Source: Phycisphaera mikurensis (GTDB lineage Bacteria > Planctomycetota > Phycisphaerae > WQYP01). From it: 38,301 nucleotides of DNA. Positions 3,889 to 37,695 of the stretch are shown one piece after another. The translations under genes and the position numbers were made by a program. The notes beneath the pieces were generated by a model, which ran no database searches, had not been told where the DNA came from, and saw only the letters and a list, made by a program, of their open reading frames with translations. Where the stretch lies: contig DZDI01000013.1 in assembly GCA_022730455.1 (NCBI GenBank), forward strand, positions 1-38,301, in the 5' to 3' direction. Numbering within the stretch: position 1 is the first letter of the stretch; each line of letters starts with the position of its first letter.

Positions 3889-3941
3889 CTATTTTTAATA
3901 CCCATAAAATAATGCAAGCCAACGCGGCCTGATGTTTGATT

Positions 3942-17328: not shown

Positions 17329-17383
17329 CGCAGCTTTGCTATTACTTGGACTGGGAGTCTGTCCAAGTAATAGCAAAGCTGCG
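17329..17383. repeat. Perfect 23-bp inverted repeat with 9-nt loop at the left edge of dispersed-repeat copy A
   Basis: cgcagctttgctattacttggac - tgggagtct - gtccaagtaatagcaaagctgcg (17329-17351 / 17361-17383). Lies 28 nt after the addA stop. Confidence 0.9.
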
Positions 17384-17626
17384 ATGTGCCGGAAATGCCC
17401 CGGATGCAAGGCGTCGGGCCGACGGCGACTCTGGTGAAGATGAGTCCGAGAACGCCGCAGACGGGGTGTTTGCGGCACACTCTCTGGGCGGCACGTCTTT
17501 TGACTGGCCTCTGCGGCGCGGCTTTCTCAGCGTATCATCTGCTCCCGATGCGCCCTCGTCACCGCTTCTTGATGCCCGCCAAAATTCATGCCGTCGCAGC
17601 CCTGCTACTACCTGGACAGACTCCCA
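17352..17626. repeat. Dispersed TIR-bounded repeat, copy A (275 bp)
   Basis: Starts tgggagtctgtccaagtaatagcaaagctgcga and ends tcgcagccctgctactacctggacagactccca. The terminal inverted repeat matches at 27 of 31 positions. Shares end blocks with copy B and the left half with copy C. Confidence 0.88.
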
Positions 17627-17631
17627 GCCAA

Positions 17632-18486
17632 TCAGGTTGGACGGGTAAAGACCGCCGGATTTAACGGCCCGGATGGAGCAACTGCGGTTGTGGACCGCCA
17701 TCGGCTACGGACGAAACGGAATATCCGTGCCGATGAAAATAAAGTTGCACCGACAGCACCGACAAAAAACCCGATGGGCCAGTCGGTCCAAAACGAAAAT
17801 GCAATGGCGGACCACATCAAGCCCACGGCCAACACCACCGACAAGACAAATGCTCTCGTCGGGTGCGATGAAAGGGTTTGGGCTGTGGCGGCTGGAACCA
17901 CCAGTAGGCTGAAAACTAGGAGCGTGCCGACGACTGGCAGGGCCATCGCCGTCACGAGGCCGAGTAAAATTAGGAACAGCAAATCCGTCGTCCCTGCGCG
18001 AATGCCTCGCGCAACGGCCAGTGCAGGAAAAGCCGATTGCAGCAGCAGCGGACGATACAGGCAAATCACCCCGACCATCACCACGGCTGAGATTATCGTC
18101 ACGGGCAGCAGGTCTGCAGAAGAAACACCCAACACCTCTCCAAACAGCAGTGCGAACACTCCCGGTCCGTATGCTTTTGTCATGCTTAAAAGCAAAGCCC
18201 CGGAGGCCATAAGCGTAACCAGTACAAGTCCCGCGGCTACATCTCTGCGTCCCAGCCGCTGAAGCTGCTGCAGCAGGGCAACGCCCACCGCCACAAAGGC
18301 CAATAATCCCCACAATGGCTGAATTCCCAGCAACTGGGCCGCAGCGGCACCGGGAAAAGCTCCGATGGGTAGAGCGTGGGCTGCAAATGCAGATCGCCGC
18401 AGCACCACAAAAAACCCCAAAATTCCCGCGGTGACGGCGATGATGGTCGCGGCAATCCATGTGTTGATCATAAAACTTGCAAACAT
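17632..18486 (-). CDS. Metal (Zn/Mn-type) ABC transporter permease
   Basis: 'AATIIAVTAGILGFFVVLRRSAFAAHALPIGAFPGAAAAQLLG', 'ALPVVGTLLVFSLLVVPAATAQ', typical of the ZnuB/MntB family. Internal Met chosen 5 nt after the upstream permease stop. Confidence 0.88.
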   Translation of the reverse strand: MFASFMINTWIAATIIAVTAGILGFFVVLRRSAFAAHALPIGAFPGAAAAQLLGIQPLWGLLAFVAVGVALLQQLQRLGRRDVAAGLVLVTLMASGALLLSMTKAYGPGVFALLFGEVLGVSSADLLPVTIISAVVMVGVICLYRPLLLQSAFPALAVARGIRAGTTDLLFLILLGLVTAMALPVVGTLLVFSLLVVPAATAQTLSSHPTRAFVLSVVLAVGLMWSAIAFSFWTDWPIGFFVGAVGATLFSSARIFRFVRSRWRSTTAVAPSGPLNPAVFTRPT

Positions 18487-18491
18487 GTCGT

Positions 18492-19397
18492 TTATCTCTC
18501 GGTGCCTTCCGGTAATGGTTCTGCCACCCTGACGCGCCGTCGCAAAAGTTGCTGACACGGAGCCCCCAGCAGATACATTGCAAAAATAATAACCACCACA
18601 AAAAAACTCACCGGCCAGGCATTGCCCGAAAACCAGTAGTAGCTTTCATAGGCCAGCCAGATACCTCCCCATACAGCGACAAGCCCCAAAATGATGGCCC
18701 ACGAAATGGCAACACAAGGCCGCCGACTCACCCGCAAGGCCGCCGCCGCCGGGCCAATCAGCAGGGCGGATGCCAGCACGGAACCAACCGACAGTGCCGC
18801 CAGTGCCACCGCTCCCGCCAATGCCAGCAGGTGCAGCATGCCCACCCAGCGATTCGAAATTCCCCGCGTGGCCGCCAGTTCAGGGTCTGCCACACTCAGG
18901 AGAAGTGGCCGGTAAAGCACACTGACGGTTCCCAAACCTAGGATCGCCACGATGATTGAAGGCCAGATGAGACTCGGAGAAAGCGCAAACATGGAACCAA
19001 ACATGACCGTCACCGCCGCCCCCGTGGTGCTCGTGGTGGTGATATCGAAATAGAGAAATAATGCAGATAGCCCCAAACCCGCACCTAGGACGATACCGGT
19101 CGCTACATCCTGATCGCGGACCCGCCGCACGCCCAGAAATTCCAAACTCATAGCCGCGATCGCGGCTATGCCCAGAAAACCAGCCAGCGGACTGATACCC
19201 AGAAAAAACGATGCGGAACCGCCAGCGCTGCTCACATCCCCCAACGCATGACCAGCAAAGGCGTGGCCGCGCAAAATGGTAAACACCCCAATCACCGCGC
19301 ACACCACCGCCGCACAGCCGCCTACCAGCAGCGCTGTCCTCACCGGCCCACTGTGAAAAAAACTGAAGTGCAGTATGTGTGCCAGCCAGACCAGCAT
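18492..19397 (-). CDS. Metal (Zn/Mn-type) ABC transporter permease
   Basis: 'VCAVIGVFTILRGHAFAGHALGDVSSAGGSASFFLG', 'VLASALLIGPAAAALRVS', ZnuB-family signature; adjacent to the ATPase gene. Confidence 0.9.
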   Translation of the reverse strand: MLVWLAHILHFSFFHSGPVRTALLVGGCAAVVCAVIGVFTILRGHAFAGHALGDVSSAGGSASFFLGISPLAGFLGIAAIAAMSLEFLGVRRVRDQDVATGIVLGAGLGLSALFLYFDITTTSTTGAAVTVMFGSMFALSPSLIWPSIIVAILGLGTVSVLYRPLLLSVADPELAATRGISNRWVGMLHLLALAGAVALAALSVGSVLASALLIGPAAAALRVSRRPCVAISWAIILGLVAVWGGIWLAYESYYWFSGNAWPVSFFVVVIIFAMYLLGAPCQQLLRRRVRVAEPLPEGTER

Positions 19398-20366
19398 TTA
19401 TACCCCCTCCGCCGACCTGGCGTCGGGCACTACATAGCACCCATCTTCCCCCTCACGCGGGCCGACATCAGGAAGCACCAGAAGTTTTCCGCCATGTTTA
19501 ATGACAGCGACCGGGTAACCATAAAGGCGGCTGAGAGTTTCCTCCTGCACCACTTCTTCAATGCTACCGCTGGCAGCTCGACCTTTAGCCAGATAGACAA
19601 TGCGATCCAGCAGCGATAAGAGTGGATTTATGTCATGGGCCGTTACCAGAACCGAAATGCCATGGACACGGGAGAGGTGGCCCAGCAACTGGGCCAATTC
19701 GCTGGCCGATCGAAAATCCAGATTTGCCAGCGGTTCATCAAGCAACAGCAAACGCGGTTGCCGAGCCATGGCGTGCGCTATGACGGCTCGTTGCTGCTGT
19801 CCTCCGGATAATTCTCCGATACGTTGGTAGGCGAAGCCTTCGGCCCCCACGGCACAAATTGCTTTATGTGCCTGTTCACGCAAGCGGCGGGAAAACCATC
19901 GCGGCCCAAGGCGGTGTCCGTCGCACCCCAGCAGGACCAGATCGAAAACCCGCAAAGGTAAGTCGGGCGCAAAATTTATCTTCTGTGGGACATAGCCCAC
20001 CCAATCACGCGCTTTGGCTGGTGGCAGTCCACACACACGCACACGCCCGTGAGGTGAGTGCTGCAGCCCAATCAAGCTTCGCAGCAGCGTTGTTTTCCCT
20101 GCCCCATTTTCACCAATGAGTCCACAAAATTCTCCCGGGCCTATGCTGAAGGTAACGTTCTGCAGCAACACCCGGGTGCCAATTCGCACCGTGATATCCT
20201 CTGCCGAAAGCAGCGGCGTACCGGTTTGTTCCATAGAGCCTTTAACTATTGCTGCCGAATAGTTCGGTACGCGAGATTCCGCTATTGCCTCGTAATCAGC
20301 CCCGTCCCGCTTACCGTCTGAAGCGATCGATACTTTTTCGCGATAGGCCATCCGAGCCCTTTCCAA
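19398..20366 (-). CDS. Metal ABC transporter ATP-binding protein
   Basis: Walker A 'GENGAGKTTL', signature 'LSGGQQQRAVIAHAMA', Walker B 'LLLLDEPLANLD', H-loop 'VTAHDI'. Start probably internal at about 20234 ('MEQTGTPLLSAEDITVRIG'). Confidence 0.93.
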   Translation of the reverse strand: MERARMAYREKVSIASDGKRDGADYEAIAESRVPNYSAAIVKGSMEQTGTPLLSAEDITVRIGTRVLLQNVTFSIGPGEFCGLIGENGAGKTTLLRSLIGLQHSPHGRVRVCGLPPAKARDWVGYVPQKINFAPDLPLRVFDLVLLGCDGHRLGPRWFSRRLREQAHKAICAVGAEGFAYQRIGELSGGQQQRAVIAHAMARQPRLLLLDEPLANLDFRSASELAQLLGHLSRVHGISVLVTAHDINPLLSLLDRIVYLAKGRAASGSIEEVVQEETLSRLYGYPVAVIKHGGKLLVLPDVGPREGEDGCYVVPDARSAEGV

Positions 20367-20375
20367 TGTACCTGT

Positions 20376-20399
20376 TCATCGGTAGCCGCGTACCGATGA
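20376..20399. repeat. Perfect 9-bp palindrome, 6-nt spacer, upstream of the metal ABC ATPase gene
   Basis: tcatcggta - gccgcg - taccgatga. Confidence 0.75.
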
Positions 20400-20488
20400 T
20401 ACACTATACGTCCAACAGGCTCTCTTGGTGCGCCATGTTACCGTAACAAGGCCACCCCGTAACCAAACGGTCGTCCAGCCACCATCCA

Positions 20489-20618
20489 GGAGCCTGTCCA
20501 AGTAATAGCAGAGCTGCGATGTGCCGAAAATGCTCCGGATGCAAGGCGTCGTCGCCGCTTCTTGATGCCCGCCAAAATCCATGCCGTCGCAGTCCCTGTT
20601 ATTACTTGGACAGGCTCC
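20489..20618. repeat. Dispersed TIR-bounded repeat, copy B (130 bp, internally deleted relative to A)
   Basis: Starts ggagcctgtccaagtaatagcagagctgcgatgtgccg and ends ccgcttcttgatgcccgccaaaatccatgccgtcgcagtccctgttattacttggacaggctcc. Both end blocks match copy A. Confidence 0.9.
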
Positions 20619-20670
20619 CGCCCAGGGGCATTTAAAAATCGAAAGCCCCCGGACGGTTAGCCATGCTCTT

Positions 20671-21615
20671 CTATCTTAAGACCTTTGTCGAAATGCCTCG
20701 CGTCACGGCCAAGCGCATGGCGTGTACTTCTGCGAGCATCCATTTCTGGTAGGTGTAACCCGTGGGCATGGTCTCATAAACGCCCACTACCGGAATGTGC
20801 GATTTCTCTGCCAAGTGCAGGAATGAGGCCGTCAGCGGATCGGTAACCTGCTGGTTGTAGACAAAAACCTTGACCGCATGTTCGCGGAACAGGCGATTCT
20901 GAATGCTCACATCCTGCGGTGCCGGATCGGTTCCATTCATGATAGCGGCCTGCAGGTTCCATGGTGTCTTGATAATGCACCCGATGGCGTTCAGCATATA
21001 ATCGCCTACTGGTTCTGTGACCGCCACGGGCGTGCCGCCAAATTCATCATTGAACTTGGCGATGGCTGCATACCATGGCTTCAGCGAAGCATCAAACGTT
21101 TTTACATTAGTATAAAAATACTCTTTATGTGCGGGATCAAGCTTGCTTAATGCGGCGGCAACGGCGTGCGCAACATTGGGCATCGTCAGAGGTTTGTACC
21201 AGAGATGAGGATTGGGCGTGTCGTTCGGCAGCCCCAGTACATGCTGTACCACGATGACCTCGCGATGGGCCTGTGGGGCGGCGGCCAAAATCTTCTTAAC
21301 CCAGGTATCGTAGCCCACACCATTCCGCACGATAAGCTGCGACCGTGCCACCTCGATAGCCACCGACGGGCTGGCCTCGAAAACGTGAGGATCGGTATTA
21401 GGGTTGCTCACGATGGATCGAACGGCCACAAATTTTCCGCCGATTTGCGCAATGACATTGGCGTATTCATTTTCTACGCCGACGGCGCGAATTTTAGCCT
21501 GCACTACTCCCGCCACACCCAAACTGGTTATGGCCGCGGCCGCGAGAATGGCAGTCAATCGGCGGATACGCAAAAGAACGCCGCCGGACCCGATACGAAA
21601 AATTGATGTGTGCAT
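20671..21615 (-). CDS. Metal ABC transporter substrate-binding protein (TroA/ZnuA superfamily)
   Basis: Signal peptide 'LTAILAAAAITSLGVAGVVQA', then 'IRAVGVENEYANVIAQIGGKFVAVRSIVSNPNTDPHVFEASPSVAIEVARSQLIVRNGVGYDTWV', 'NPHLWYKPLTMPNVA'. Start chosen from the strong SD GGAGGTT (21621-21627). Confidence 0.88.
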   Translation of the reverse strand: MHTSIFRIGSGGVLLRIRRLTAILAAAAITSLGVAGVVQAKIRAVGVENEYANVIAQIGGKFVAVRSIVSNPNTDPHVFEASPSVAIEVARSQLIVRNGVGYDTWVKKILAAAPQAHREVIVVQHVLGLPNDTPNPHLWYKPLTMPNVAHAVAAALSKLDPAHKEYFYTNVKTFDASLKPWYAAIAKFNDEFGGTPVAVTEPVGDYMLNAIGCIIKTPWNLQAAIMNGTDPAPQDVSIQNRLFREHAVKVFVYNQQVTDPLTASFLHLAEKSHIPVVGVYETMPTGYTYQKWMLAEVHAMRLAVTRGISTKVLR

Positions 21616-21724
21616 AGCACAACCTCCTGTAACGCTCTCCATCGGCCGGCCGTTGACCATACGTTTAAGGCATATACGCACACGCGCCTGCCTGAATGGC
21701 CGCACCGACATCAAGCGACTTGAG

Positions 21725-21777
21725 GTTATACAATGTCATACCAATAGTGTCAAGCCAATGATTGTACATTGTTATAC
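21725..21777 (-). promoter_or_regulatory. Candidate regulatory region: two inverted ATACAATGT-like motifs upstream of the substrate-binding protein gene
   Basis: gttatacaatgtcata (21725-21740) and, in inverse orientation, tgtacattgttatac (21763-21777; reverse complement gtataacaatgtaca). AT-rich and divergent from the surrounding GC-rich DNA. Confidence 0.35.
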
Positions 21778-21813
21778 GGTGAAAAATATGCGACGCACTG
21801 CTGGTTGCGAAAT

Positions 21814-23277
21814 TCAGCAGGACAGCCTGCGGGGCCGAGTCGCCAATAGTCGCCTTGGCCCAGTGGCCAACGCCAGCAAGCCTACGCCGCCGAGCAAAAG
21901 AAACCAGCTTGCCGGCTCGGGTACCGGCGATCCAGCCAAAACCAGTCCAAGTTCCGAATTGGGTTGGTCAATGGTCATCCAGCTAAAGGCCCCCGCGTTC
22001 GCTTGGCTTAAATTCACCGTACCACTGGGCTCGAAAAAATTCATCCCTAAATCGCCCGCAAGGGTGAGCATTTTGCCCGTCGTGGGATCGGTGACCGTAA
22101 CATCCACAACTTCAACCGGCGCGTTTTCAAAAGTAATCGTGGTACCCTGCCTGGTTTGCAGCGAAAGTGAACTTAAATAAAAGCCCGCGGCCGTAAGCGA
22201 AGTTCCGCCCGCGCCTCCCAGTGGAATTGCAAACTGGTTGGGAACCACTTTTCCGCTGGCCGTATACACCAACACTGGATTGGATGTCCCATAGGTACCC
22301 GCCTCGTATTGCACGCCGATCTGGCTGGCCATCGCCTGTGAAATAAAGGATGCTTGGGCACCGGTATCCAGTAAAAAGCTGCCGGTGGCGGAAGCGCCAT
22401 TAAATCCAATGGTAACACCGGGTGGGGCGTTGGTTTGGGTTTGGCCATTAAAGGCAGTCACTGGGTTTGGTCCGACAAAGGGATTGGGGGCATAAATGGG
22501 ACCCGCTGCTCCAGCGGGCGTGGCGGTGGTAAACTGCTGAAACGATGCATAGCTTAATCCCACCTGATAAGTGGTTGGGACGATTCCCGGATTGGTATTA
22601 ATTTGCGATGGGTTGTAGGGGGTCCCCGGTGTGTATATATAGGTTTGCGTTTCGCCCGGATTGTTGACGTTGGCAAAATTGTTGGCTGGGCCTAAATCCA
22701 GCACAGTTACTTTTCCATCCATCACCGGCATACCCATGATGTCGGTCGCACCGGTAAGCGAACTTGTCGGGCTGGGTTGCTCCGTAAGTTCCATCTGTGC
22801 CGGGCCGATGGCGTTACCGAAGGCGCTTATGGGCGGCGGCGTACCACCGATGGTCTGATCCGTATTTACGCTAAACGGTGCCGTAGATATCTCGTAACCG
22901 GTGGAGACATAAAACGGCGCCGTGCCGCCTATCGCTACATCATTAAATACGACATTCTGACCGTCGCTGGTGCTTGGAGTGATGCCCAAACCCGTCCACG
23001 TGCTGTGGCTAAGCACAATGCTGCTGGTGCCCGTATCCAAATAAGCCTGAATCACCGAATAGCCGCCGCTCGTAGTCAATACCTTTCCCGTGGTGGGATT
23101 GGTAATAATGGCGTTGATTTGTGGTTGGTCCATGGCTACTGGAAGCACGCCAGAGATGTCCATCGCTCGGGCCACACCCGATGGCGCAAGCGTAGCCACC
23201 ACTCCAGCCGCCGCCAACGTTAAAAACCAAGCCAATTGAAATGTGCTGTTTCCGTGTGGTGCGCAATGGGTCGCCAT
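21814..23277 (-). CDS. PEP-CTERM-sorted protein with retropepsin/pepsin-like aspartic protease domains
   Basis: N-terminal signal peptide, two aspartic-protease-type motifs ('LDTGTSSIVLS' and 'LLDTGAQASFIS'), C-terminal 'VPEPASWFLLLGGVGLLALATGPRRL' sorting signal. Start supported by SD 'atggaggaaacatccATG'. Confidence 0.82.
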   Translation of the reverse strand: MATHCAPHGNSTFQLAWFLTLAAAGVVATLAPSGVARAMDISGVLPVAMDQPQINAIITNPTTGKVLTTSGGYSVIQAYLDTGTSSIVLSHSTWTGLGITPSTSDGQNVVFNDVAIGGTAPFYVSTGYEISTAPFSVNTDQTIGGTPPPISAFGNAIGPAQMELTEQPSPTSSLTGATDIMGMPVMDGKVTVLDLGPANNFANVNNPGETQTYIYTPGTPYNPSQINTNPGIVPTTYQVGLSYASFQQFTTATPAGAAGPIYAPNPFVGPNPVTAFNGQTQTNAPPGVTIGFNGASATGSFLLDTGAQASFISQAMASQIGVQYEAGTYGTSNPVLVYTASGKVVPNQFAIPLGGAGGTSLTAAGFYLSSLSLQTRQGTTITFENAPVEVVDVTVTDPTTGKMLTLAGDLGMNFFEPSGTVNLSQANAGAFSWMTIDQPNSELGLVLAGSPVPEPASWFLLLGGVGLLALATGPRRLLATRPRRLSC

Positions 23278-23552
23278 GGATGTTTCCTCCATCTAAAAAC
23301 CGCTTGCTCTGCCGACTTGCCTCCAACGGCTCGCCATTATAACGTGTATGGCGTCACACCGAAAGCAAAATATGCAGAAATTGCGGCCCGCGAAAATACC
23401 GCGATGGTATCGGGTCGAATATCGAGATACCGCAAGCCACCGGGGCATACATATCGCCCGTGCTTAATTACTCGCCTTAGCTTTATCCTTATTCAGGCGA
23501 TACCCACAACGTCCATGTGCTCAATGTATTTGTTGGGCATATACTCTCGTAA

Positions 23553-24050
23553 ATGAAAAAAGGTGCTAAAACCCCAAAAAACACCAATCACGATGACGGG
23601 AAACTTTCGCCGCGGATCGAAAATCGGCGTGCTCGCTTTGATTATGAAGTGCTCGACACTGTGGAGGCGGGCATCGCGCTGCTGGGCAGCGAGGTGAAGT
23701 CCGCCCGCCTGGGCCGCGTGCAACTTGCCGGTTCATTTGCCCTGATTCGTGGCCGCAATGTGGTGCTCGTCGGTTGTCACATTGAAGAATATGAACAAGC
23801 CAATCGGCTTAATCACGACCCCACACGCTGGCGCAATTTGTTGCTGCATCGGCGCGAAATTCGGCGGTTATCGCAGGCCTTAGCCAAGCAGCCTGGGCTC
23901 ACCCTTGTGCCGCTGGAAATTTACTTCAAACATGGGTTTGCCAAGGTGCGGCTGGCGCTGGCAAAGGGCAAGACACAATTCGACAAGCGGCAAACCCTTA
24001 AAGACCGCGACGCCAAGCGGCAAATAGACCGGGCCCTGCGACGCAATTGA
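23553..24050 (+). CDS. smpB: SsrA-binding protein SmpB
   Basis: 'SPRIENRRARFDYEVLDTVEAGIALLGSEVKSARLGRVQLAGSFALIR', 'KTQFDKRQTLKDRDAKRQIDRALRR'. Confidence 0.95.
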   Translation: MKKGAKTPKNTNHDDGKLSPRIENRRARFDYEVLDTVEAGIALLGSEVKSARLGRVQLAGSFALIRGRNVVLVGCHIEEYEQANRLNHDPTRWRNLLLHRREIRRLSQALAKQPGLTLVPLEIYFKHGFAKVRLALAKGKTQFDKRQTLKDRDAKRQIDRALRRN

Positions 24051-24132
24051 TTTTGGCGACAGCGCCCCGTACCCGATTTGTCCGTGGGGCATCACGACCG
24101 TACGGCTGCGACATACTCTGTAAGCGCGGGTG

Positions 24133-25503
24133 CTAGACAATGTGCGGTCGGGTTTGCCCGGACGTATCTGGCTTTTTTCCTGCCGGTGCGATGGTACCAC
24201 CGGCTGGGTCTGCGGTAAACGCATGCGGTGGGGCGCTGCTATCGCTATCGGCATGAGTCGGAGATGGTATCATCATCGCGCCACTGGACTTGGGGGTCCA
24301 TGAAACTATACCAATTTTGAATGCCACGACCACCAAGCATCCTAGGAGCACCATGTAAAGCGCAATCGCCATGAGGGTGGATATGAGAACAATAATAAAT
24401 GCGAAACCTACGAAGATAAAGGCGATCAGATAACTGAGAAGCGCAGCTTTTTTCACTGATAGTCCGCGTTTCAGCAAGAAGTGATGGAAGTGCCCCGCAT
24501 CGGGCGAAAAAATGGGGCGGCCCGCTAATTTTCGCCGTACAATCGCCAAAAGCGTATCGAGCAGCGGCAAACCAAAGATAATGACCGACGCCAAAAACCA
24601 GCGGAATATGCCGTCATTGCCAAAAAGTAAAATCATGGCCCCGCAGACAAACCCCAGAAACATACTGCCCGTATCGCCCATGAAAATACTGGCAGGATTG
24701 AAGTTGAACGGCAAAAATCCCAGTACCGATCCCAAGAGCGCCATGCTGATCGTGATTCGTGCCGGATTCAGTGCCGTGATGCTCGTCGCACTTAGCCCGT
24801 GGGCCGCCAGATACACCGACAGCAGCAGATAGCCAATCGACATGATGCTGGTAACTCCGCTGCACAGACCATCCATGCCGTCCAGAAGATTCAGGGCGTT
24901 GCAGGCACCCATGATTACCACGACGGTGACCACAGCGCTGAATATGCTGGCAATAGTCACGTAGGTGTGCGGCATGAGCATTGGAAGGTTCATGATCCAA
25001 TGGTGACGGATCAACGGATACATGATCATATTAGCCAGATCAATCCGCGGGCCGATAAGCCCCTGCCGGGTAATGCTCAGAAAGTACAGCAGTCCCGCAC
25101 CTATAAACTGCCCCATAAGTTTCAGTCGAGGCGCTAAGCCATACACATCATCGAAGAGCCCGAACAGCATTACGGTTCCAGCCCCAAAGATTATGCCCGG
25201 AGGTACTTGCGCGGCCGTTACCATGGACGGATCAGGTGTGACTGGCCGGATGGCGGTGGAAACCAATATGCCAGCGAGCCAACCCAAAAACGTGGCCACG
25301 CCGCCCAGATAGGCAACCGGCCGCACATGAATTTTTCGATATCCGTCCGGTTCGTCCACCACGCCATAACGAATGGCGAGAAAACGCATCAACGGCGTGA
25401 GGCACAGCGTGACGACAAACGAAACCACAAAGACCGGCACGTACGGCTCAATGATGCTCACGGAAGAGTTGTATGCAGGCATCAACATCGTTACGCCGAC
25501 CAT
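24133..25503 (-). CDS. MraY/WecA-like undecaprenyl-phosphate sugar-1-phosphate transferase
   Basis: Multi-TM with 'DEPDGYRKIHVRPVAYLGGVATFLGWLAG', 'NALNLLDGMDGLCSGVTSI', 'NFNPASIFMGDTGSMFLGFVCGA', 'GHFHHFLLKRGLS'. Confidence 0.92.
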   Translation of the reverse strand: MVGVTMLMPAYNSSVSIIEPYVPVFVVSFVVTLCLTPLMRFLAIRYGVVDEPDGYRKIHVRPVAYLGGVATFLGWLAGILVSTAIRPVTPDPSMVTAAQVPPGIIFGAGTVMLFGLFDDVYGLAPRLKLMGQFIGAGLLYFLSITRQGLIGPRIDLANMIMYPLIRHHWIMNLPMLMPHTYVTIASIFSAVVTVVVIMGACNALNLLDGMDGLCSGVTSIMSIGYLLLSVYLAAHGLSATSITALNPARITISMALLGSVLGFLPFNFNPASIFMGDTGSMFLGFVCGAMILLFGNDGIFRWFLASVIIFGLPLLDTLLAIVRRKLAGRPIFSPDAGHFHHFLLKRGLSVKKAALLSYLIAFIFVGFAFIIVLISTLMAIALYMVLLGCLVVVAFKIGIVSWTPKSSGAMMIPSPTHADSDSSAPPHAFTADPAGGTIAPAGKKPDTSGQTRPHIV

Positions 25504-25896
25504 CCATTCACTGAGACTTTAAGCTCGCTCACCCTCGCGGCGTGCCACACCACTCTGTCGCAGGCGCAACAGAGCAACTCGTCGATTGTAACGCCGGATA
25601 AGGTTAGTACCAACCTCATTTTTCGTAAAATCGAGTTCCTCATCACCGCGTTTATATCGGACATTAAAGGACAAGTGATGAGCGAGAGGCACCAGTATTG
25701 ATTGAGATTTCACCGCCACAGAGGTGAAATGGCTCTGATTATCTAATTTGCGAATATTTGCCTGCGTTTCAAACCTTGAAAAATAAGGGGCGATAATATC
25801 ACCTGGAAAATCAACTTCGGGTACGGGTTTTGAAGTACAATCCGCAACCAAGCGGGTGCAGGAGCGTTGTTACTTACATGAGTTTCGGATGGCATC

Positions 25897-26433: not shown

Positions 26434-26530
26434 GCACGCGGGTGATGAGCCGACTTATTCTGGAGGTCGTGGCGGTTGTGTACCACACGGCCCAGCTCAG
26501 ACCTCTGGTGCGTATGAAAGCGAGTGCGAT

Positions 26531-27070: not shown

Positions 27071-27084
27071 TTCATGGAGTTCAC

Positions 27085-28464: not shown

Positions 28465-28535
28465 CAAAATCCGTCGCCTTTGCGCTATAATGCCCGACGG
28501 AATATTGGCGTAAGTATGCTGGAACATGAGCGAAA

Positions 28536-29936
28536 ATGACTGACCCCAAAACAAGCGGTTTTATCGACTGGGTGGAAGAGCACCGCGGTTCGCAATATTC
28601 CCTGCATCAGGAATATATCAACCCGGCGTTTGTCAAAATGCTTCAGGCGATTGGCTTTGACAAAAATTATACCCGAGGACAGGGGCCATACCTCTGGGAT
28701 GGCCAGGGCCATCAATACCTGGATTTACTTACGGGCTGGGGTGTTTTTATGCTGGGCCGCAATCATCCCCGGGTGCGTGAAGTGCTTAAGGAGATGATCG
28801 ATGCCGATAGCCCCAATTTGGTTCGTATGGATTGCAGCATTCTAAGCGGTTTGGTTGCCAAAGCGCTTGCCAGCCACATGCCCGATGGCCGCTGGCGAGT
28901 GTTTTTTACCAACAGCGGCACTGAGTCGGTGGAGGCGTCGCTAAAATTTGCCCGCGGCGTGACGGGCCGTCAGAAGGTAGTTTATTGTCACCATGCGTTT
29001 CATGGTTTGACTGCCGGATCGCTTTCCGTCAATGGCGCAACGTTTTTTCGTGAACGTTTTGGCCAGCTCGTACCCGGCTCCGTGGAGGTACCCTTTAACG
29101 ATCTTGCCGCCTTGGAAAAAGCCCTCGCTAATGGGGATGTCGCTGCTTTCATTCTTGAACCGATTCAAGGTAAGACGTGTGAAGTGGTGGCCGACGGCTA
29201 CCTGATCGAGGCCCAGCGATTGTGCCAAAAGACGGGCGCTTTGCTCATTCTCGATGAAGTGCAGACAGGTATGGGACGCACGGGCAAATGGTTCGGCTTT
29301 CAGCATTGGCCGGGAGTCGAACCCGACATGGTGTGTGTGGCCAAGGGGCTCTCGGGCGGCTTTGTGCCGGTAGGGGCCGTCATTTGTAAGGCCCACATCA
29401 TGGAAGCGGTCTTCAATTCCATGGAGCGCTGCGTCGTGCATTCCAACACCTATGGCCAAAATGATCTGGCAATGGCCGCCGCGATGGCCAGCATCCAGGT
29501 GATTGAAGATGAGCATCTGGTGGAAAATGCCGCCGAGCTGGGTGAGGCGACAATTGTCCGCCTGCGTGAAATTGGTAAAACCTGCCCCTTTGTCACCGAG
29601 GTGCGGGGTAAAGGATTGATGTTCGGCATAGATTTTGCCAAGCCTGAAAAATCTATTAAATTACGCTTGGCGTGGGATGCACTGCATAAATTGAACTTCG
29701 GCGTATTCGGACAGGTGATCGTGGTGCCGCTCATGCAGAAACACCGCATTCTGACTCAGGTGGCCGGATATCATACCGAAGTTATTAAATTTTTACCACC
29801 TTTGGTGGTGACTCAGGCCGATATGGACTGGTTTCTCAATGCCATGGATGAGACCCTGGCTGATACACAACGTATTCCGGGCGCGGCTTGGGACACCGTG
29901 ATGAGTCTGGCTAAAAATGTTCTTCGGCCTGGATGA
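28536..29936 (+). CDS. Class III PLP-dependent aminotransferase (HpnO-like)
   Basis: 'YLWDGQGHQYLDLLTGWGVFMLGRNHPRVREVL', 'FTNSGTESVEASLKFAR', 'LLILDEVQTGMGRTGKWFGFQHWPGVEPDMVCVAKGLSGGFVPVGAV'. Confidence 0.9.
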   Translation: MTDPKTSGFIDWVEEHRGSQYSLHQEYINPAFVKMLQAIGFDKNYTRGQGPYLWDGQGHQYLDLLTGWGVFMLGRNHPRVREVLKEMIDADSPNLVRMDCSILSGLVAKALASHMPDGRWRVFFTNSGTESVEASLKFARGVTGRQKVVYCHHAFHGLTAGSLSVNGATFFRERFGQLVPGSVEVPFNDLAALEKALANGDVAAFILEPIQGKTCEVVADGYLIEAQRLCQKTGALLILDEVQTGMGRTGKWFGFQHWPGVEPDMVCVAKGLSGGFVPVGAVICKAHIMEAVFNSMERCVVHSNTYGQNDLAMAAAMASIQVIEDEHLVENAAELGEATIVRLREIGKTCPFVTEVRGKGLMFGIDFAKPEKSIKLRLAWDALHKLNFGVFGQVIVVPLMQKHRILTQVAGYHTEVIKFLPPLVVTQADMDWFLNAMDETLADTQRIPGAAWDTVMSLAKNVLRPG

Positions 29937-29986
29937 CGGGCGGTTGCGTTGAATAGGTATGTGTTGACCATCTATACTGAATTGCC

Positions 29987-32716
29987 ATGCACCTGATCCA
30001 GCGGAAAATGCTTGCCTTCGTCCTGCTGGTGGTTCGTCATCCGCGCTGGGTCCTGTCGCTCGGACTGGCGATGACGGTCGTCGGCGCCTTGTTGGCCGTT
30101 TTTTTTCTCCCCATTTCGACCGATCAAAACAAGCTCTTTTCCGCCCGCGTGCCCTTCTTTCATCGATACTTGCAGTACATCCATGATTTTCCGGAAAATG
30201 AAGCCGCTTATGTCGTAATAACCGCACGTCATGGCCATTCGCCGCCACCCGCCCGGCAGTGGATTGCCGCCGCCAACGCCGTCGCAGACGCCCTGCGTCA
30301 CCTAAAGACCTACGTGCGTGCCGTTGACTCTCACATACCCGTCAAACGCCTGGGGGCACGGGCCATTTGCTTTGCTTCACCCCGGCAGGTTACCGGGGCC
30401 ATCGCCGCCCAACCGACGGTGGGGCGGTTGGCTCAGCTCTTTACCGGTGACTCCGTGCTAAAAAATAATCTATTGGGAAAAAATCGATTGCTCACCCTGC
30501 TGACGCATTTCCCTCATTCCCATTCGCAGGCTGACGGGTTTTTGCAGAGGCTGGCCAACTCGCTCCGCTTTGCGCTTTCTCATCCCCGCACGGACCACCG
30601 GGACGCACGCACGATTGCCCGGATTTTGGCCCCCGGCGTGCCATCCCCACTGGATAAGGGTTACTATTATTTTCCCTCCGCCAGCAACCCCGGCCGCTAT
30701 GTACTGGTCATCAATGTCTTTCCCCGCTTCACCTACGATTCGCTCTCCGCCGTATCACTGCCACTGGAAAAAATTCGCGCCGCCATGCTCCGCGCTGCCG
30801 GCCCCTACACGGCCGAGTTCCATTTTGGCCTTACGGGACGCCCGGTACTGGCGGCCGATGAAATGCGCATCACCACACACGATACCAATTGCGCCGAGGC
30901 CCTGGCGATGACCGTGGTGCTGATCGGCTTGATCCTGATGCTTCGGTCGGTCTGGCTGGCGCTGGCCGCCGGACTCTCGCTGGTGGCGGCCATCGCATGG
31001 ACTTTTGGCTTCGCCACCATCGCTGTGGGGCAACTCAATTTGTTATCCACCGTGTTTGTCATAGCGATGATCGGTATCGGCATGGACTATATTATTCAAA
31101 TATTAGTTCGGTATCGCCATGAGGTACGTCGATATACCCGCCCGGATGCCGTATGGATGAGGGTGTTCCGATACACCGGCCCGGCGGTCGCCACCGCGTG
31201 CTGTGGAGCTTCAGCGGCGTTTCTCGTGGCTCTGACGACACACTTCACCGGCGATGCCGAGCTCGGACTCATTGCCGGTGGTGGATTGCTGTTTTCGCTC
31301 GTGGCGGGCTTCACCGTCTTGCCGGCCATGCTCATCATCTGGCCGCCTAAATTCAAACCCGTGCCAACGGCCAGACGCTTCGCCCATCACAAGCCTCCAC
31401 CGAAGGCCAGTCGGTTTAAGTTCGCCGCATTGGCCGTGTGGCTCGCGACCATCGGGGCACTAAGCCCGTTTGCGCTCCATGTTACGTTTAATCCCAATCT
31501 CCTGAAGCTGCAGGCACGCGGCTTGAAATCGGTGGAACTTATAAAAGACATGCCGTCATGGTACGCCGTCGTACTCTCGCATCACCCCGAAAAATTACAG
31601 GCTTTGCAGGATCGTCTAAATCGCAGCATTCGGCCCGGTTCACAAATCGCCTCCACCAGCAGTCTCTTTGACGCTCTCCGCAACCAGAAGGTTTTGGCCC
31701 GGGGTAGCCGCATATTTTCCAGCATCGATTGGCATCCCCCTCCCGCCTTGAGTGCCGCGGACATCCTCCCGCTTTATATTGCCGTGCAGCAGCTCGCAGC
31801 GACGTTGAACGTCCGCCGTCATCCACCAACATCCGTGGCGGCTCTTGAGCAAATGGCTGCCGTACTGCACCATATCAAACCGGCGCTGGCCGCCACGCGG
31901 CTTACAGCATGGCAGCATCAATGGATGCTTTCCCTGCAACAATTGGCGGCCAAATTATCGCCACCGCCCATTGACCCAATGCAATTGCCTTCGGCGGTAA
32001 AAAATCATTTCATTGGGCGATCTGGCGTGTGGGCACTCTATATTCATCCGCGTTGGAATTTATGGATAAACCAGAATCTGCGCGATTTTGTCCACACTCT
32101 CAGGGGAAAGAAAATGCCCAGTGGCCTCCGCACCCACGGGCTTGTGCCGGAGAATATGAATTTGACGGGCATCGCTCCTCAACTCTACGATTCAACACAA
32201 TCCATCAAACAGGCTTTTGTGCAGTGCACCATCTTGGCGCTCGCGCTGGTCATTGTGATCGTGTTGCTGGACCTGCGAAACGTAGGGCAAACCATCCTGA
32301 CGGTCGGCGTGCTGCTCCTGGGGCTGCCGATGCTCGCGTGTGTTATGGGCCTCCTGCATCTGGATTGGAACTTTGCCAACTTTTTCGCCATGCCTATTTT
32401 GATCGGTGCCGGCCACGAATATGGTGTATTTATGACGCACCGATATCGCGAGAGCCTGCACAACCCGCGCCGTGTCTGGCGCTTCTGGGATGTTAGCGAA
32501 CGAGCCTTGTTGATGTGTGCTTTTGTAACATGTTCAGCCTTCGGATTTCTTGCGCTGGGGCGCGATCGCGGCATCGCGAGTCTGGGTTTGGTCATGACTA
32601 TTGGGATTGCGTGCATTTATCTCGCTGCCATTCTGGTCATCCGGCCTATCTTGGTGTGGCGGCTGGCGCATAAAAATGTTTATGCCGATGTATGTGACTG
32701 GGACGATGAGGTGTAA
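29987..32716 (+). CDS. RND/MMPL-family transporter (HpnN-like)
   Basis: 909 aa with two repeats of TM bundles; 'FVIAMIGIGMDYIIQILVRYRHE', 'FFAMPILIGAGHEYGVFMTHRYRE', 'ERALLMCAFVTCSAFGFLALGRDRGIASLGLVMTIG'. Confidence 0.85.
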   Translation: MHLIQRKMLAFVLLVVRHPRWVLSLGLAMTVVGALLAVFFLPISTDQNKLFSARVPFFHRYLQYIHDFPENEAAYVVITARHGHSPPPARQWIAAANAVADALRHLKTYVRAVDSHIPVKRLGARAICFASPRQVTGAIAAQPTVGRLAQLFTGDSVLKNNLLGKNRLLTLLTHFPHSHSQADGFLQRLANSLRFALSHPRTDHRDARTIARILAPGVPSPLDKGYYYFPSASNPGRYVLVINVFPRFTYDSLSAVSLPLEKIRAAMLRAAGPYTAEFHFGLTGRPVLAADEMRITTHDTNCAEALAMTVVLIGLILMLRSVWLALAAGLSLVAAIAWTFGFATIAVGQLNLLSTVFVIAMIGIGMDYIIQILVRYRHEVRRYTRPDAVWMRVFRYTGPAVATACCGASAAFLVALTTHFTGDAELGLIAGGGLLFSLVAGFTVLPAMLIIWPPKFKPVPTARRFAHHKPPPKASRFKFAALAVWLATIGALSPFALHVTFNPNLLKLQARGLKSVELIKDMPSWYAVVLSHHPEKLQALQDRLNRSIRPGSQIASTSSLFDALRNQKVLARGSRIFSSIDWHPPPALSAADILPLYIAVQQLAATLNVRRHPPTSVAALEQMAAVLHHIKPALAATRLTAWQHQWMLSLQQLAAKLSPPPIDPMQLPSAVKNHFIGRSGVWALYIHPRWNLWINQNLRDFVHTLRGKKMPSGLRTHGLVPENMNLTGIAPQLYDSTQSIKQAFVQCTILALALVIVIVLLDLRNVGQTILTVGVLLLGLPMLACVMGLLHLDWNFANFFAMPILIGAGHEYGVFMTHRYRESLHNPRRVWRFWDVSERALLMCAFVTCSAFGFLALGRDRGIASLGLVMTIGIACIYLAAILVIRPILVWRLAHKNVYADVCDWDDEV

Positions 32717-32774
32717 TGGCGCGTGTTTCGGTTAATATAACCCCGGTTTTGGATGACTCTGGCAGTGGTAATGG

Positions 32775-33761
32775 GTGAAATACATGACGAATTCAAACGT
32801 GCAGCGTGTGCTGGTAACCGGTGCAGCGGGGTTTTTGGGGTCGCATCTAACCGATCGACTTCTGGACCTAGGCCACGAAGTCATCGGTGTGGATTCCATG
32901 ATCACCGGATCGGCTGACAACGTCGGCCACCTTACAGGTCACCCGAGATTCAAATTGCTTACCGCCGACTTGGCCCGTGGTTTACCACCGGAAATCAAAG
33001 AGCAGACTTTTGACCGCATTTGGCATTTGGCCAGCCCCGCCAGTCCCGTCGGATACGTCAAACAGCAGGTCATCACCCTTAAAGTCAATGCCATCGCTAC
33101 GATCGAATTGCTTGAATTGGCGGAAAAATCGCACGCCCGGATATTTGTGGCTTCAACCAGCGAATGCTATGGCGATCCGCTGGAACATCCGCAAAAAGAG
33201 ACCTATTGGGGAAATGTTAATCCCGTCGGGATGCGCAGCATGTATGACGAAAGTAAACGCTTCATGGAAGCGGCCGCCATGGTATATCACCGCGAACGCG
33301 GCGTCGATACCCGGATTGTCCGCATCTTCAATACCTACGGCCCCCGGCTTGCGGTGGACGATGGCCGCGTGGTCGTGGCGTTCATTAAACAGGCACTTCA
33401 CGGCGAACCCCTTACTGTGCAGGGTGATGGGACGCAAACTCGGTCGCTTTGTTATGTAGATGATGAAATTCGCGGTTTTCTCCTCCTGATGGAATCTCCG
33501 GACTATCACCTGCCCGTTAACATCGGCAATCCCGATGAGGTTTCAGTGATGCACATTGCTGAAGAAATAAAAGCACTTTGTGGTTCCAAAAGTGCCATTC
33601 AACATGCCCCCTTGCCGCCCGATGATCCGCGCCAACGTTGTCCGGACATCTCCCTGGCCAAATCTTTGCTGGGATGGAAACCCACCATCAGCCGACGTGA
33701 CGGCTTACTGCGAACAATTGAATATTACCGCCAAAAACTGGGCATTTCAGCCGCCGTATAA
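32775..33761 (+). CDS. NAD-dependent epimerase/dehydratase, UDP-glucuronate decarboxylase (UDP-xylose synthase)-like
   Basis: 'VLVTGAAGFLGSHLTDRLLDLGHEVIGVD', 'HLASPASPVGYVKQQVITLKVN', 'ASTSECYGDPLEHPQKETYWGNVNPVGMRSMYDESKRFMEA', typical of the Uxs family. Confidence 0.88.
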   Translation: MKYMTNSNVQRVLVTGAAGFLGSHLTDRLLDLGHEVIGVDSMITGSADNVGHLTGHPRFKLLTADLARGLPPEIKEQTFDRIWHLASPASPVGYVKQQVITLKVNAIATIELLELAEKSHARIFVASTSECYGDPLEHPQKETYWGNVNPVGMRSMYDESKRFMEAAAMVYHRERGVDTRIVRIFNTYGPRLAVDDGRVVVAFIKQALHGEPLTVQGDGTQTRSLCYVDDEIRGFLLLMESPDYHLPVNIGNPDEVSVMHIAEEIKALCGSKSAIQHAPLPPDDPRQRCPDISLAKSLLGWKPTISRRDGLLRTIEYYRQKLGISAAV

Positions 33762-33859
33762 TCCCGACCGGCGGCGCTGGCTGATATACCTGCTGACAGG
33801 TTACACATTTACCGGGCTGCACTGGAGGCGTCCGGCGTAACGCTGCATCTTGGTGCAGC

Positions 33860-34213
33860 TCAAATGGCTTCTGATCCCGTGGTGCCGTCACTGATACGGA
33901 TCACGGACTCCAGCGGCAAAACAAAAATTTTACCGTCTCCCACCTGCCCCTTGCCATCCACGCCCGTACGCGCCGCTTTCAGAATGGCCGATATCGTAGG
34001 CTCCACAAACTGATCGTTGACCGCAATATCCAACCGCACCTTGCGGATCAGATTCACCTGCATCGCCTGGCCTCGAAAGTATTCCGTATGCCCTTTCTGG
34101 CGGCCATACCCCTGCACGTCGCTGACGCTGAGACGAAAAACCTCAACTTCGCTCAGTGCCATCTTGATGGCGTCCAAGCGGTAAGGTTGAACAATTGCTA
34201 TGATCCACTTCAC
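33860..34213 (-). CDS. PII nitrogen regulatory protein (paralogue 1)
   Basis: 'MKWIIAIVQPYRLDAIKMALSE...GYGRQKGHTEYFRGQAMQVNLIRKVRLDIAV...VGDGKIFVLPL'; GTG start. Downstream of amtB and PII-2. Confidence 0.93.
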   Translation of the reverse strand: MKWIIAIVQPYRLDAIKMALSEVEVFRLSVSDVQGYGRQKGHTEYFRGQAMQVNLIRKVRLDIAVNDQFVEPTISAILKAARTGVDGKGQVGDGKIFVLPLESVIRISDGTTGSEAI

Positions 34214-34340
34214 AATAAAATCCCCCTGAAAGCCACATGTAACTCACACACCGGGCCGCGATAACCGTGCGTTGGCCTGATTAAATTAACCGCTTTCGTC
34301 TTTTTGGCCAATATACGCCGGCCTCCAGTCGAGCAGGCGC

Positions 34341-34694
34341 CTAAAGGGCGTCGGGCCCGGATACCCCATCACTGATCCGCAGGGCGGTGTCGATGGGCAG
34401 GATGAAAATTTTACCGTCACCCACCTGCCCGCGCCCGCCGGCACCCGTGCGGGCCGCGCGGATGATAGCGTCGGTGACCGTCTGCACCTGTCCATCGGCA
34501 ACGGCTATGTCCAGTCGCACTTTACGGATGAGATTGGTTTGACTCGATTCACCGCGAAAAAACTCAGTATGCCCCTTTTGTCGCCCATACCCTTGAATAT
34601 CAGATACTGTCAATCTGAAAATTTCCGCCTCAGTCAGCGCTAATTTAACCGATTCTAGGCGATGAGGTTGTATGACAGCAATAATCCATTTCAT
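34341..34694 (-). CDS. PII nitrogen regulatory protein (paralogue 2)
   Basis: 'MKWIIAVIQPHRLESVKLALTEAEIFRLTVSDIQGYGRQKGHTEFFRGESSQTNLIRKVRLDIAV...VGDGKIFILPIDTALRI'. Confidence 0.93.
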   Translation of the reverse strand: MKWIIAVIQPHRLESVKLALTEAEIFRLTVSDIQGYGRQKGHTEFFRGESSQTNLIRKVRLDIAVADGQVQTVTDAIIRAARTGAGGRGQVGDGKIFILPIDTALRISDGVSGPDAL

Positions 34695-34831
34695 TAATTC
34701 TGTACCTTTTTCATCGTGAGAGTAAATTCAATCCATCGGTATTTTCACCGGATGGCTAACCGCACTACCTATCCTGCGCTACTGGCCCTGCAGAATACAC
34801 ACTTTCGATTCTACAGGTAATTGCCGCGTTA

Positions 34832-34871
34832 TAAAACGAAAGCGGCTGGGGATTATTAAATCCCCAGCCGC
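34832..34871 (-). terminator. Rho-independent terminator of amtB
   Basis: On the minus strand: 11-bp perfect stem tccccagccgc/gcggctgggga (34842-34852 / 34861-34871) with 8-nt loop, followed by 'tttcgtttta'. Confidence 0.85.
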
Positions 34872-34916
34872 AGTGAGCAACCATCGCAGTATGGCTTGCA
34901 GTCAGCAGCCTGAACT

Positions 34917-36422
34917 TCAGGCGGTAACCGCACCTTCGCTGATGTCGTCTTCGGCTAGGCCGTAGGCCTCTTCGCCGTGCACGGCCGCGTCGCCAACACG
35001 CAGTTTTGTATCCGACATACGCAGCGGCACCACCAGCTTGATGAGATACAGCAGCACGGTAGTGACCACAATGTTCAGGCCGATAATAAACGCAGCACCG
35101 ACCAGCTCCAGCCAAACCAGTTTCGGATTCCCGGCAAGTAATCCGCCCGGAGTGGTCAGACCAAAGGCTGCGCACCCGATCTTGGTGGCAAAGATGCCGG
35201 TCATGATACCACCCAGAAGGCCGGCAAAGCCGTGCGTATGCACAACGCCGAGGCAGTCGTCAACTTTCTTGAAAATCGCCAATTTTTTACCGAGGATATT
35301 CATCGTAAACCACGGTATGGTGGCGCAAACGACGCCCACCGCAATGGCGCCATAGCCATTGACCACACCAGCACCAGGCGTGATGCCTACCAGCCCGGTG
35401 ATCATGCCATTGACCGCACCGAGCACAGATGGCTTACCGTATTTTACGTAATCCAAGAACATCCAAACCAACAGCGCCATGGCGGTGGCGACGTTGGTGT
35501 TCAGCACGGCGGCACCAGCATCGGCATTGGCCGAGTACGGGTCACCACCGTTAAAGCCGTTCCAACCCAGCCACACCAAACCGGCACCCGCCAACACCAT
35601 CAAGATGTTGTTGGCGCGGAAGTTCTCGCGGTCCTGTGGTAAACGAGGTCCGATGATCGCGGCAGCGGTAAATCCGGTTACACCCGCAGCCAAGTGAATG
35701 ACATATCCACCCGAATAGTCAATGACTCCCATTTGACCCAGGAAACCTCCACCCCACAGGCTAAATGCGCCCACGGTGTACGAGAAGGTCATCCACAGCG
35801 GAACAAATATGATCCATGCCATAAAGTTCATACGGCCAAAAAGCGATCCGGCAAACAAAATGACGGTGATGGCGGCAAATACAAACTGGAAGTAAACCAT
35901 CGCCGACATTGGGAATCCGGCCGTCGCCCCAGCGGCAGGAATGCTTGCCTGGACGAGTTCGTCAGACATACTCGCGACGGGCCCAGGGTGACCCAGGAAT
36001 GGAAACCACTCCGGGCCGAAGCCCATGTTGTAGGCCCAGAGCAGCCACACAATCAGGACGGCAGCAAAGGCGTAAAACACCATAAATGCCGAATTGATGG
36101 CCCATTTTTTCTTCACCACGCCACCGTAAAGAATAGCGAGGCCCGGAATGCTTTGCATGCCGACGATAGTTGCAGCCGTAAGCTGCCATGCCGTGTCGCC
36201 GTGCGAAAGCCAAGCCGGAGTGGCCCAATTGATAGGGGCCGGGGCGCTGGCCGCAGGTGCCGCTGCAGTGGCGGCCGCCACTACCGGGGGTGCAGCCGCA
36301 GGTGCTGCCGGCGCAGCCGTCTGAGCCAGCAACGGGCCGGCTACCATGGTGAACATCAGCAGCAAGCCGATGCCAGCCATCCATTTCATCTTTCTGGGTG
36401 TAAACCATTTCGTGGGACGCAT
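34917..36422 (-). CDS. amtB: Ammonium transporter (Amt family)
   Basis: 'DTAWQLTAATIVGMQSIPGLAILYGGVVKKKW', 'GGYVIHLAAGVTGFTAAAIIGPR', 'LVWLGWNGFNGGDPY', 'DDCLGVVHTHGFAGLLGGIMTGIFA'. Start from SD 'taggagaatt'. Confidence 0.95.
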   Translation of the reverse strand: MRPTKWFTPRKMKWMAGIGLLLMFTMVAGPLLAQTAAPAAPAAAPPVVAAATAAAPAASAPAPINWATPAWLSHGDTAWQLTAATIVGMQSIPGLAILYGGVVKKKWAINSAFMVFYAFAAVLIVWLLWAYNMGFGPEWFPFLGHPGPVASMSDELVQASIPAAGATAGFPMSAMVYFQFVFAAITVILFAGSLFGRMNFMAWIIFVPLWMTFSYTVGAFSLWGGGFLGQMGVIDYSGGYVIHLAAGVTGFTAAAIIGPRLPQDRENFRANNILMVLAGAGLVWLGWNGFNGGDPYSANADAGAAVLNTNVATAMALLVWMFLDYVKYGKPSVLGAVNGMITGLVGITPGAGVVNGYGAIAVGVVCATIPWFTMNILGKKLAIFKKVDDCLGVVHTHGFAGLLGGIMTGIFATKIGCAAFGLTTPGGLLAGNPKLVWLELVGAAFIIGLNIVVTTVLLYLIKLVVPLRMSDTKLRVGDAAVHGEEAYGLAEDDISEGAVTA

Positions 36423-37577
36423 GTAAAATTCTCCTAAATTAAAATTCAACCAGATACAAACCACTGACGAGACTGACTTTCCCGCAACGCACGGGTTTCA
36501 ATGCAACTCTCTTTTCATTTCACGATGTCCAATATCACCTCCTTCATCAAAACCCGGGGCTGGAAAGCCAATACTCAATTGGGCACATCGGTCGGGTCGC
36601 AATTCGTCCAATGTAGCCAGACAAAAAATAATGTTTTTATCAGGAGAGTCGCGGTAAATTCGCCGACTGCACCGAATATGGTTGAGATGTGGCAGCGATG
36701 GTTCGCCACGCTGAAACCACCGGCATATTGCTTAAAAAATGGGCCCATTCAAAGCGTGAACTTGTCGGAGGATCAAGTGGTTCCCGTCGCGAACTGACAA
36801 CCGCATCCACGGTTTGATATTTTTTACCCAGCATGACATTGGCGGCCAACAAGCAGTCACCACGATTGGCTCTGTGATGCAGTGTGAAAGCGTCAATAGT
36901 GTCTTGCCGCATCTTATTCTGGGTGCCGCCGCCCACTTGGCTCCGTAAGGCCGCAGCCGTCATCGGTGAATGCAAAGCCAATACAGTGGTACCTGCCGTG
37001 CCCACGCCATGTTCGTCACCATGAGCACGCGCTACCACGACGAAAAACACCATCGTGCAGGCCACCAGCAGAATCGCGTGGAAGGTACTCAGTGGGAGTG
37101 AACGCAGCAACACAGTGCCGTCACTTCCGCCATATGGAAGCGGTGACACGCCCCGGCATATTTTGCGCGCCGGTTTCACCATTCTGATTTTGGTGTCACA
37201 AGGTTGCACTGCTCAGGCCCTTTCAAACTCCCGGCCAAAAACGTATTTGGCTGATCGGCAGGGATAAGTCGCAATTGTTGTGCCAAAGCTGCGACTACCT
37301 TGGTGCCTGGCTTAGCGAATAGCTCACAAATCCTTAAAATTCAGGCATCTTGACGCTGGGCGAAATGGGCGTTGGCCAATTTGCGGGCGGATTACATATG
37401 CCTGAAAACTCATCGCTGAACCTATTTTTTGAATTGTTGCATACTATTTAGGCAATCGGGTTGGATATTATGAAGTGAGACCACGGCCATAAGCGCATAA
37501 CATCGTCTTTGTCACGCCCATGGATTTCCACCAAGATGAATCACGCCCACCAATTTGATCCCACATTTGCATACTTA

Positions 37578-37695
37578 GGAGTCTGTCCAAGTAATAGCAA
37601 GGCAGCGATGTGCCGGAAACGCTCCGGATGCAAGGCGTCGGGCCGACGGCGCCTCTGGTGAAGATGAGTCGTCGAGGCCCGAGAACGCCGCAGAC
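37578..37695. repeat. Dispersed TIR repeat, copy C (left-half only)
   Basis: ggagtctgtccaagtaatagcaaggcagcgatgtgccggaaacgctccggatgcaaggcgtcgggccgacggcgcctctggtgaagatgagtcg...gagaacgccgcagac matches the left part of copy A. No right terminus found. Confidence 0.85.

Follow-up and report, generated by a model that had tools for sequence, protein, structure and literature searches.

A family of dispersed repeats, represented by three copies in a 38,301-nucleotide stretch of DNA from Phycisphaera mikurensis (Planctomycetota), is very probably a high-copy miniature inverted-repeat transposable element (MITE) that has ends of the IS1182 type and carries a shared hairpin module. The stretch (the window), contig C252, comes from a 394-contig draft genome of 3.23 Mb with a completeness of 93%. 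The body of the element consists of two inverted copies of this module, which is about 110 nucleotides (nt) long, and is not that of a shrunken insertion sequence (IS). In several phyla, MITEs that have other terminal inverted repeats (TIRs) likewise have a body made of one or two copies of this module. The original prediction, made from the letters of the window, had described three dispersed copies with TIRs, and all three (copies A, B and C) are found in the window sequence at the places given. It had missed that the body is a pair of inverted hairpin modules common to MITEs with other ends.

Structure of the element body

Copy A (17354..17624, + strand) is a full-length MITE of 271 bp and scores 259.9 bits with a covariance model of the whole element (R1). 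It had been described as 275 bp long; the element is indeed at this site, but the additional two nucleotides on each side are the flanking TG and CA. Its left TIR (GGAGTCTGTCCAAGTAATAGCAAAGCTGCGA, 17354..17384, + strand) forms an inverted repeat with the right TIR (17594..17624, - strand), and the first 21 nt are those of both ends of an IS1182-type element found in a relative (L192, see below). The inverted repeat is imperfect (34 nt, 88%); that of copy B is 23 nt long (96%).

The left arm of copy A (17378..17487) carries the module in the sense orientation on the + strand, and the right arm (17484..17601, - strand) carries it inverted. With a second covariance model, of the hairpin alone (R2, derived from alignment A2), the left arm, which is a training sequence, scores 79.0 bits and the right arm 35.7 bits (E 3.7e-4). 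Both arms show covariation, and the fold of the left arm has a z-score of -3.6. The core of the module is GCAAGGCGC...GCAACGCNGC.

Compared with shuffled sequences, copies A and B fold with z-scores of -6.2 and -9.2, respectively. An alignment of 35 copies shows a TIR stem and two inner arms. In the inner arms alone, 95.7% of the cells are paired (38-43% in slid controls), and double changes occur in 20 of the 63 inner pairs, compared with 11.1 +- 1.6 in shuffles, none of the 500 shuffles reaching 20. This shuffle test is inflated by the kinship of the copies, and it is the slid control and the many types of pair that weigh most. The body is non-coding: it aligns over its 271 bp as structured DNA without a transposase gene. 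Each arm of copy A is more stable on the strand that carries the module in sense, and the module alignment folds with -48.0 kcal/mol on the sense strand and -36.0 kcal/mol on the opposite strand. A strong strand asymmetry of G-U over A-C pairs was a first impression; once the alignment is thinned it is suggestive only.

A scan of the window with Rfam gave no match above the gathering score. Lax scans gave only sub-threshold matches to microRNA precursors, which fall on the left-end palindrome of copy A, and at five other module loci the module itself was without a match. Beside one module-bearing element (L322), two matches to Acido-Lenti-1 RNA exceed the gathering score (1842-1888 and 1989-2038).

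The module behind other ends

The matches to R1 include a 276-bp element, matched over its full length, in a metagenome-assembled genome (MAG) of the Acidobacteria, and elements in other families of Planctomycetota, in Nitrospira and in Ca. Euphemobacter. The R1 score is not in itself proof of homology, the reverse complement of the element scoring 88.9 bits. Read side by side, these matches have one hairpin in common, with the core GGATGCAAGGCGC...GCAACGCCGCAGACGG. The acidobacterial element had been taken as unrelated in its body (35% identity), a view overturned by the covariance model together with an orientation-specific alignment (z of about 6 to subfamily I, described below). Elements of about 160 bp contain the module once.

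Of 392 Planctomycetota genomes sampled, R2 finds the module in 51 (approximately 13%), which belong to 47 of 267 genera and often have many copies. It also occurs in Acidobacteria, Nitrospira, Euphemobacter and Comamonadaceae. At least a dozen different TIR sequences surround the module (for example, TTAGAACCCATCCCAAAACCCC, TAAGAGTCTATCTCAAAACC, TGAGAAGGTGTTCCCATCAAC, CTAGTGCCGTGAACTGGAAGTG and AGAGCGTGAGCAGGAATCCC), and it lies about 20-35 nt inside them. Three contigs of a viral collection and a plasmid of Comamonas odontotermitis carry it as well. The plasmid copy (L391, 4001-4272) is an unannotated TIR element of about 270 bp between genes for a small multidrug resistance transporter and for organic hydroperoxide resistance. 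In two of the viral contigs (L388 and L390), as in the plasmid, the module lies inside elements of about 270-280 bp with ends of the form TTAGAAC[CG]TGTT. A query with a single arm gave no match among plasmids. No published report of the module motif was found, the text matches to it being unrelated strings.

Another repeat family of the genome under study, bounded by CTAGTGCTCTGTCACGCC, likewise carries the module, and chimaeras of the two families occur. Members with the end CTAGTGCTCTGTCACGCCTACAAATTAGG occur on five contigs (C189:47871, C158:4015, C207:2987, C266:99 and C298:2860) and at loci L017, L024 and L028. At a further locus (L031, contig C331) a decayed IS630-type transposase gene with an internal TAG adjoins a CTAGTGCTCTGTCACGCC end oriented away from the gene.

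Ends, target site and partner transposase

The first family has TIRs of 21-31 bp, and its clean copies read GGAGYCTGTCC...GGACAGRCTCC, preceded by CTA and followed by TAG. Among 90 paired copies, drawn from this genome and its relatives, 34 are flanked by TA on both sides, and it is in these that the target-site duplication of a MITE is seen across the family; 22 of the 34 have the extended form CTA...TAG. The other 12 have unequal outer bases and thus favour a duplication of TA over one of CTAG, although at CTAG sites duplications of 2 bp (TA) and of 4 bp (CTAG) would leave identical letters. In the window, copy A is flanked by TG and CA and copy B by CA and CG, and a TA duplication is seen in neither. 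Departures from TA in this genome and its relatives are mostly single transitions that give CA or TG and frequently affect just one flank. Very-short-patch repair would turn CTAGG into CCAGG.

Candidate partners were sought in the taxonomic family with DDE_Tnp_1 and with a scan for the TIR pattern. The L192 element (2355-3897, 1543 bp) has an intact reading frame, CTA...TAG flanks and the sequence GGAGTCTGTCCAAGTAATAGC exactly at both ends, both 21-nt TIRs being identical to the MITE consensus. Its transposase belongs to the IS1182 family (NCBIfam NF033551, 357.5 bits against a cut-off of 270). Two elements of 1726 bp have the same ends and TA flanks: L139, with an intact frame of 486 amino acids, and L143, from the genus of the window genome, which is frameshifted. 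A fourth (L135) has an internal deletion and similar ends. IS1182-type transposases adjoining the same TIR are also found in MAGs of Dehalococcoidia and other Chloroflexi and, with both ends, in a MAG of Deltaproteobacteria (L198, L250 and L257). A search of the draft genome studied here for a transposase of the L192 type gave no match.

The suggested MITE-like, non-autonomous nature of the repeats is thus borne out by the TIRs, the TA flanks, the high copy number, the absence of coding capacity and the IS1182-type partners with the same ends in relatives. An IS1182-type aspartate-aspartate-glutamate (DDE) transposase supplied in trans would recognise the TIRs, and copies would insert at TA, preferably within CTAG, in intergenic DNA. 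Such mobilisation in trans is suggested by the shared ends, and the approximately 100 copies in this genome appear to be the orphaned residue of a past burst.

Two other origins were considered. That the MITE is an internally deleted IS was rejected since, by eye, the body has no similarity beyond the ends to L192, L139 or L143, and R2 finds no module in the autonomous L192 and L139. An IS630-type partner was also rejected: there are four DDE_3 loci in this genome and none has the ends of the family. The alternative name in the original prediction, repetitive extragenic palindromic (REP) sequences or bacterial interspersed mosaic elements (BIMEs), was considered as repeats spread by a REP-associated tyrosine transposase (RAYT). 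This is very improbable: the repeats are dispersed, intergenic and palindromic, as that reading expects, but they have TIRs of 31-34 bp, the target-site signature of TA/CTAG flanks, a unit of 271 bp with its own body and an IS1182-type DDE partner.

Copy number, sizes and distribution

The 21-nt TIR, allowing up to three mismatches, has 95 matches on each strand of the 3.23-Mb genome (190 in total), compared with none for a reversed control pattern. A search with copy A gives at least 40 scored copies with 73-97% identity, so that the family is not limited to the three copies of the window; it amounts to about a hundred copies of an element of approximately 270 bases. A search of the genome contigs with a long exact pattern gave no match.

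The three length variants originally distinguished do exist, but the recurrent sizes are 271-281 bp and 48-49 bp; lengths of 58, 91, 130, 208, 303 and 497 bp occur once each in the fetched pieces. The 48-49-bp elements are two TIRs with a short spacer, minimal palindromes that are possibly mobile. Examples are found on three contigs of this genome (C111:15818, C214:39708 and C328:921) and at L110, L157, L172, L216 and L230, several of them flanked by TA.

Copy B (20489..20618, + strand, 130 bp), which lies between znuC and znuA, does not represent a size class, its length being seen only once among the copies fetched from this genome. It joins positions 1-63 of the family profile to positions 210-279, and this supports the proposal that it is an internal-deletion derivative of copy A, whose middle was lost at a short CGTC/TCG microhomology. 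Copy C (37578..37695, + strand) is similarly one of many truncated copies. It shares the left 118 nt or so of copy A (profile positions 1-120) and then ends, and so comprises the left end and most of one module (R2, 55.3 bits at 37626-37695), without the right part. A scan across the whole window revealed no further clear copy of the family.

Many copies lie at contig ends, and 32 partial profile matches are cut by the edge of the fetched piece. The assembly thus often breaks at the repeat, and the family explains the break points of many contigs in this genome. This abundance at contig ends might also suggest an artefact of assembly or binning, but complete copies lie within long contigs (C281, C189, C137, C232 and C252) and the family is present in independently assembled relatives, which leaves this explanation with hardly any credibility.

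Insertions avoid genes: only 22 of 78 outer junctions fall inside long open reading frames (ORFs), compared with 81% of random points. A bias towards positions upstream of genes (38 versus 16) is not claimed, as it rests on a crude ORF caller. Copy A sits between addA (end at 17300) and znuB (- strand, stop at 17632). In six relatives the spacers of the syntenic znu locus are without copies A and B; at about 70% identity these relatives do not provide base-precise empty sites. Elsewhere in this genome (L004, 2109-2356, contig C137) a truncated copy stops where, by reading only, an apparent tRNA gene starts.

Immediately to the left of copy A is a remnant of another element end (17329..17351, - strand), an exact inverted copy of 17361-17383. 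It lacks the outer GGAGTCT and is separated from copy A by TG. Similar junctions recur at least four times (for example, on contigs C155, C165 and C266): next to a full end, and separated from it by CA or TG, lies another in inverted or tandem orientation, from which precisely the outermost 7 nt (GGAGYCT) are missing.

Of 28 genomes belonging to this taxonomic family, 20 contain the TIR of the repeat, with 1 to 247 ends in each. In relatives at the level of the class it occurs only singly, with three mismatches. Those carriers that have a name are MAGs of Planctomycetota, some of them from Phycisphaerae/Phycisphaerales. When 37 full-length bodies are placed in a tree, two subfamilies emerge that cut across genera: subfamily I is found in the genome studied here and in G003, subfamily II in G002 (a third member of the genus), and both in G016, G008 and G027. 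The pattern points to horizontal spread, or to old coexisting lineages, with bursts specific to individual genomes.

Possible role of the module

Several observations weigh against the interpretation given here. Flanking dinucleotides are unequal in 51 of the 90 pairs, and the 39 equal pairs are a modest excess over permutation (mean 31, maximum 42), so that the target argument rests on the preference for TA/CTAG. The absence of a transposase is judged on an incomplete (93%) draft, and the IS1182 partner is a putative one, assigned from shared ends. The core is partly degenerate, although recognisable, in distant genomes that did not contribute to R2. Some module loci have no clear TIR or one that is implausibly wide, and many TIRs resemble GAGCCTGTC and are perhaps interrelated. 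After thinning, the excess of G-U over A-C is weak (13:10 and 12:4). Finally, the compensatory changes could stem from template switching, an established mechanism for imperfect palindromes in general.

This last point leads to another explanation, that of a plain IS1182 MITE whose hairpins are upheld by mutation only, template switching in quasi-palindromes matching the arms without any function. It would explain both the symmetry of the arms and the double changes. It does not predict that unpaired letters of the core should be conserved in distant genomes and behind unrelated ends, and we consider it unlikely.

A bolder reading is that the module is reusable cargo, joined to many transposon ends across phyla, and that selection maintains it, as single-stranded RNA or DNA, for a specific biochemical role; we give this rather less than an even chance. 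The role could be in taming read-through transcription or in serving several transposases or a host factor. The module would be kept because of its folding as a single-stranded nucleic acid in the sense orientation. This would most likely be as RNA in read-through transcripts, making insertions tolerable or allowing them to be processed, and an inverted pair would yield one sense hairpin in either orientation of insertion. That the module acts in this way, as an RNA hairpin in read-through transcripts, is a slightly more doubtful proposition. A role as DNA in transposition, in which the module is extruded on single-stranded DNA and recruits a transposase or host factor at a fixed distance from the ends, to the benefit of several DDE transposases, would agree with its position just inside TIRs of many kinds and with its presence in MITEs and absence from the two autonomous ISs tested. 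The 48-49-bp elements, which have no module, are also flanked by TA, so that the ends alone may suffice, and this role too seems rather improbable.

The usual view of a MITE is of a shrunken copy of a single IS whose interior has no meaning. In the present case it is the interior that is conserved and the ends that vary, which makes an old puzzle testable: do the bodies of bacterial MITEs act? The module adds a structured element outside Rfam, and the Comamonas odontotermitis plasmid copy is an accessible place to test it.

Comparison with known systems

As an IS1182 MITE, the family would be a known kind of element; a hairpin body shared behind varying ends was not found described. The IS1182-family ISs themselves (L192 and L139) have identical or near-identical ends and TA flanks in CTAG, but are 1.5-1.7 kb long, carry a transposase gene and share neither the interior nor the module. 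Correia and ERIC (enterobacterial repetitive intergenic consensus) elements are likewise high-copy, non-autonomous and intergenic and give structured transcripts, and Correia elements undergo cleavage by RNase III at their ends; they differ in that the parts of that account consulted mention no module shared between elements with different ends (PMC10969869). REPs are also dispersed intergenic palindromes, but are units of 20-40 bp with a GTAG/CGTC tag at one end (PMC3733652), and not 271-bp TIR elements at TA/CTAG. The closest published element found is MITEPye1 of Paracoccus yeei (159 bp, 18-bp TIRs, 4-bp repeats, 1-3 copies), for which no shared module is described (PMC11578231). It too is non-coding and intergenic, with IS1182-like TIRs, direct repeats at the target and a long predicted stem-loop (PMC11578231). 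By description, not by sequence, the present family is set apart from it by its length of 271 bp, its approximately 100 copies, its TA/CTAG target and its body of two modules, which other MITEs share.

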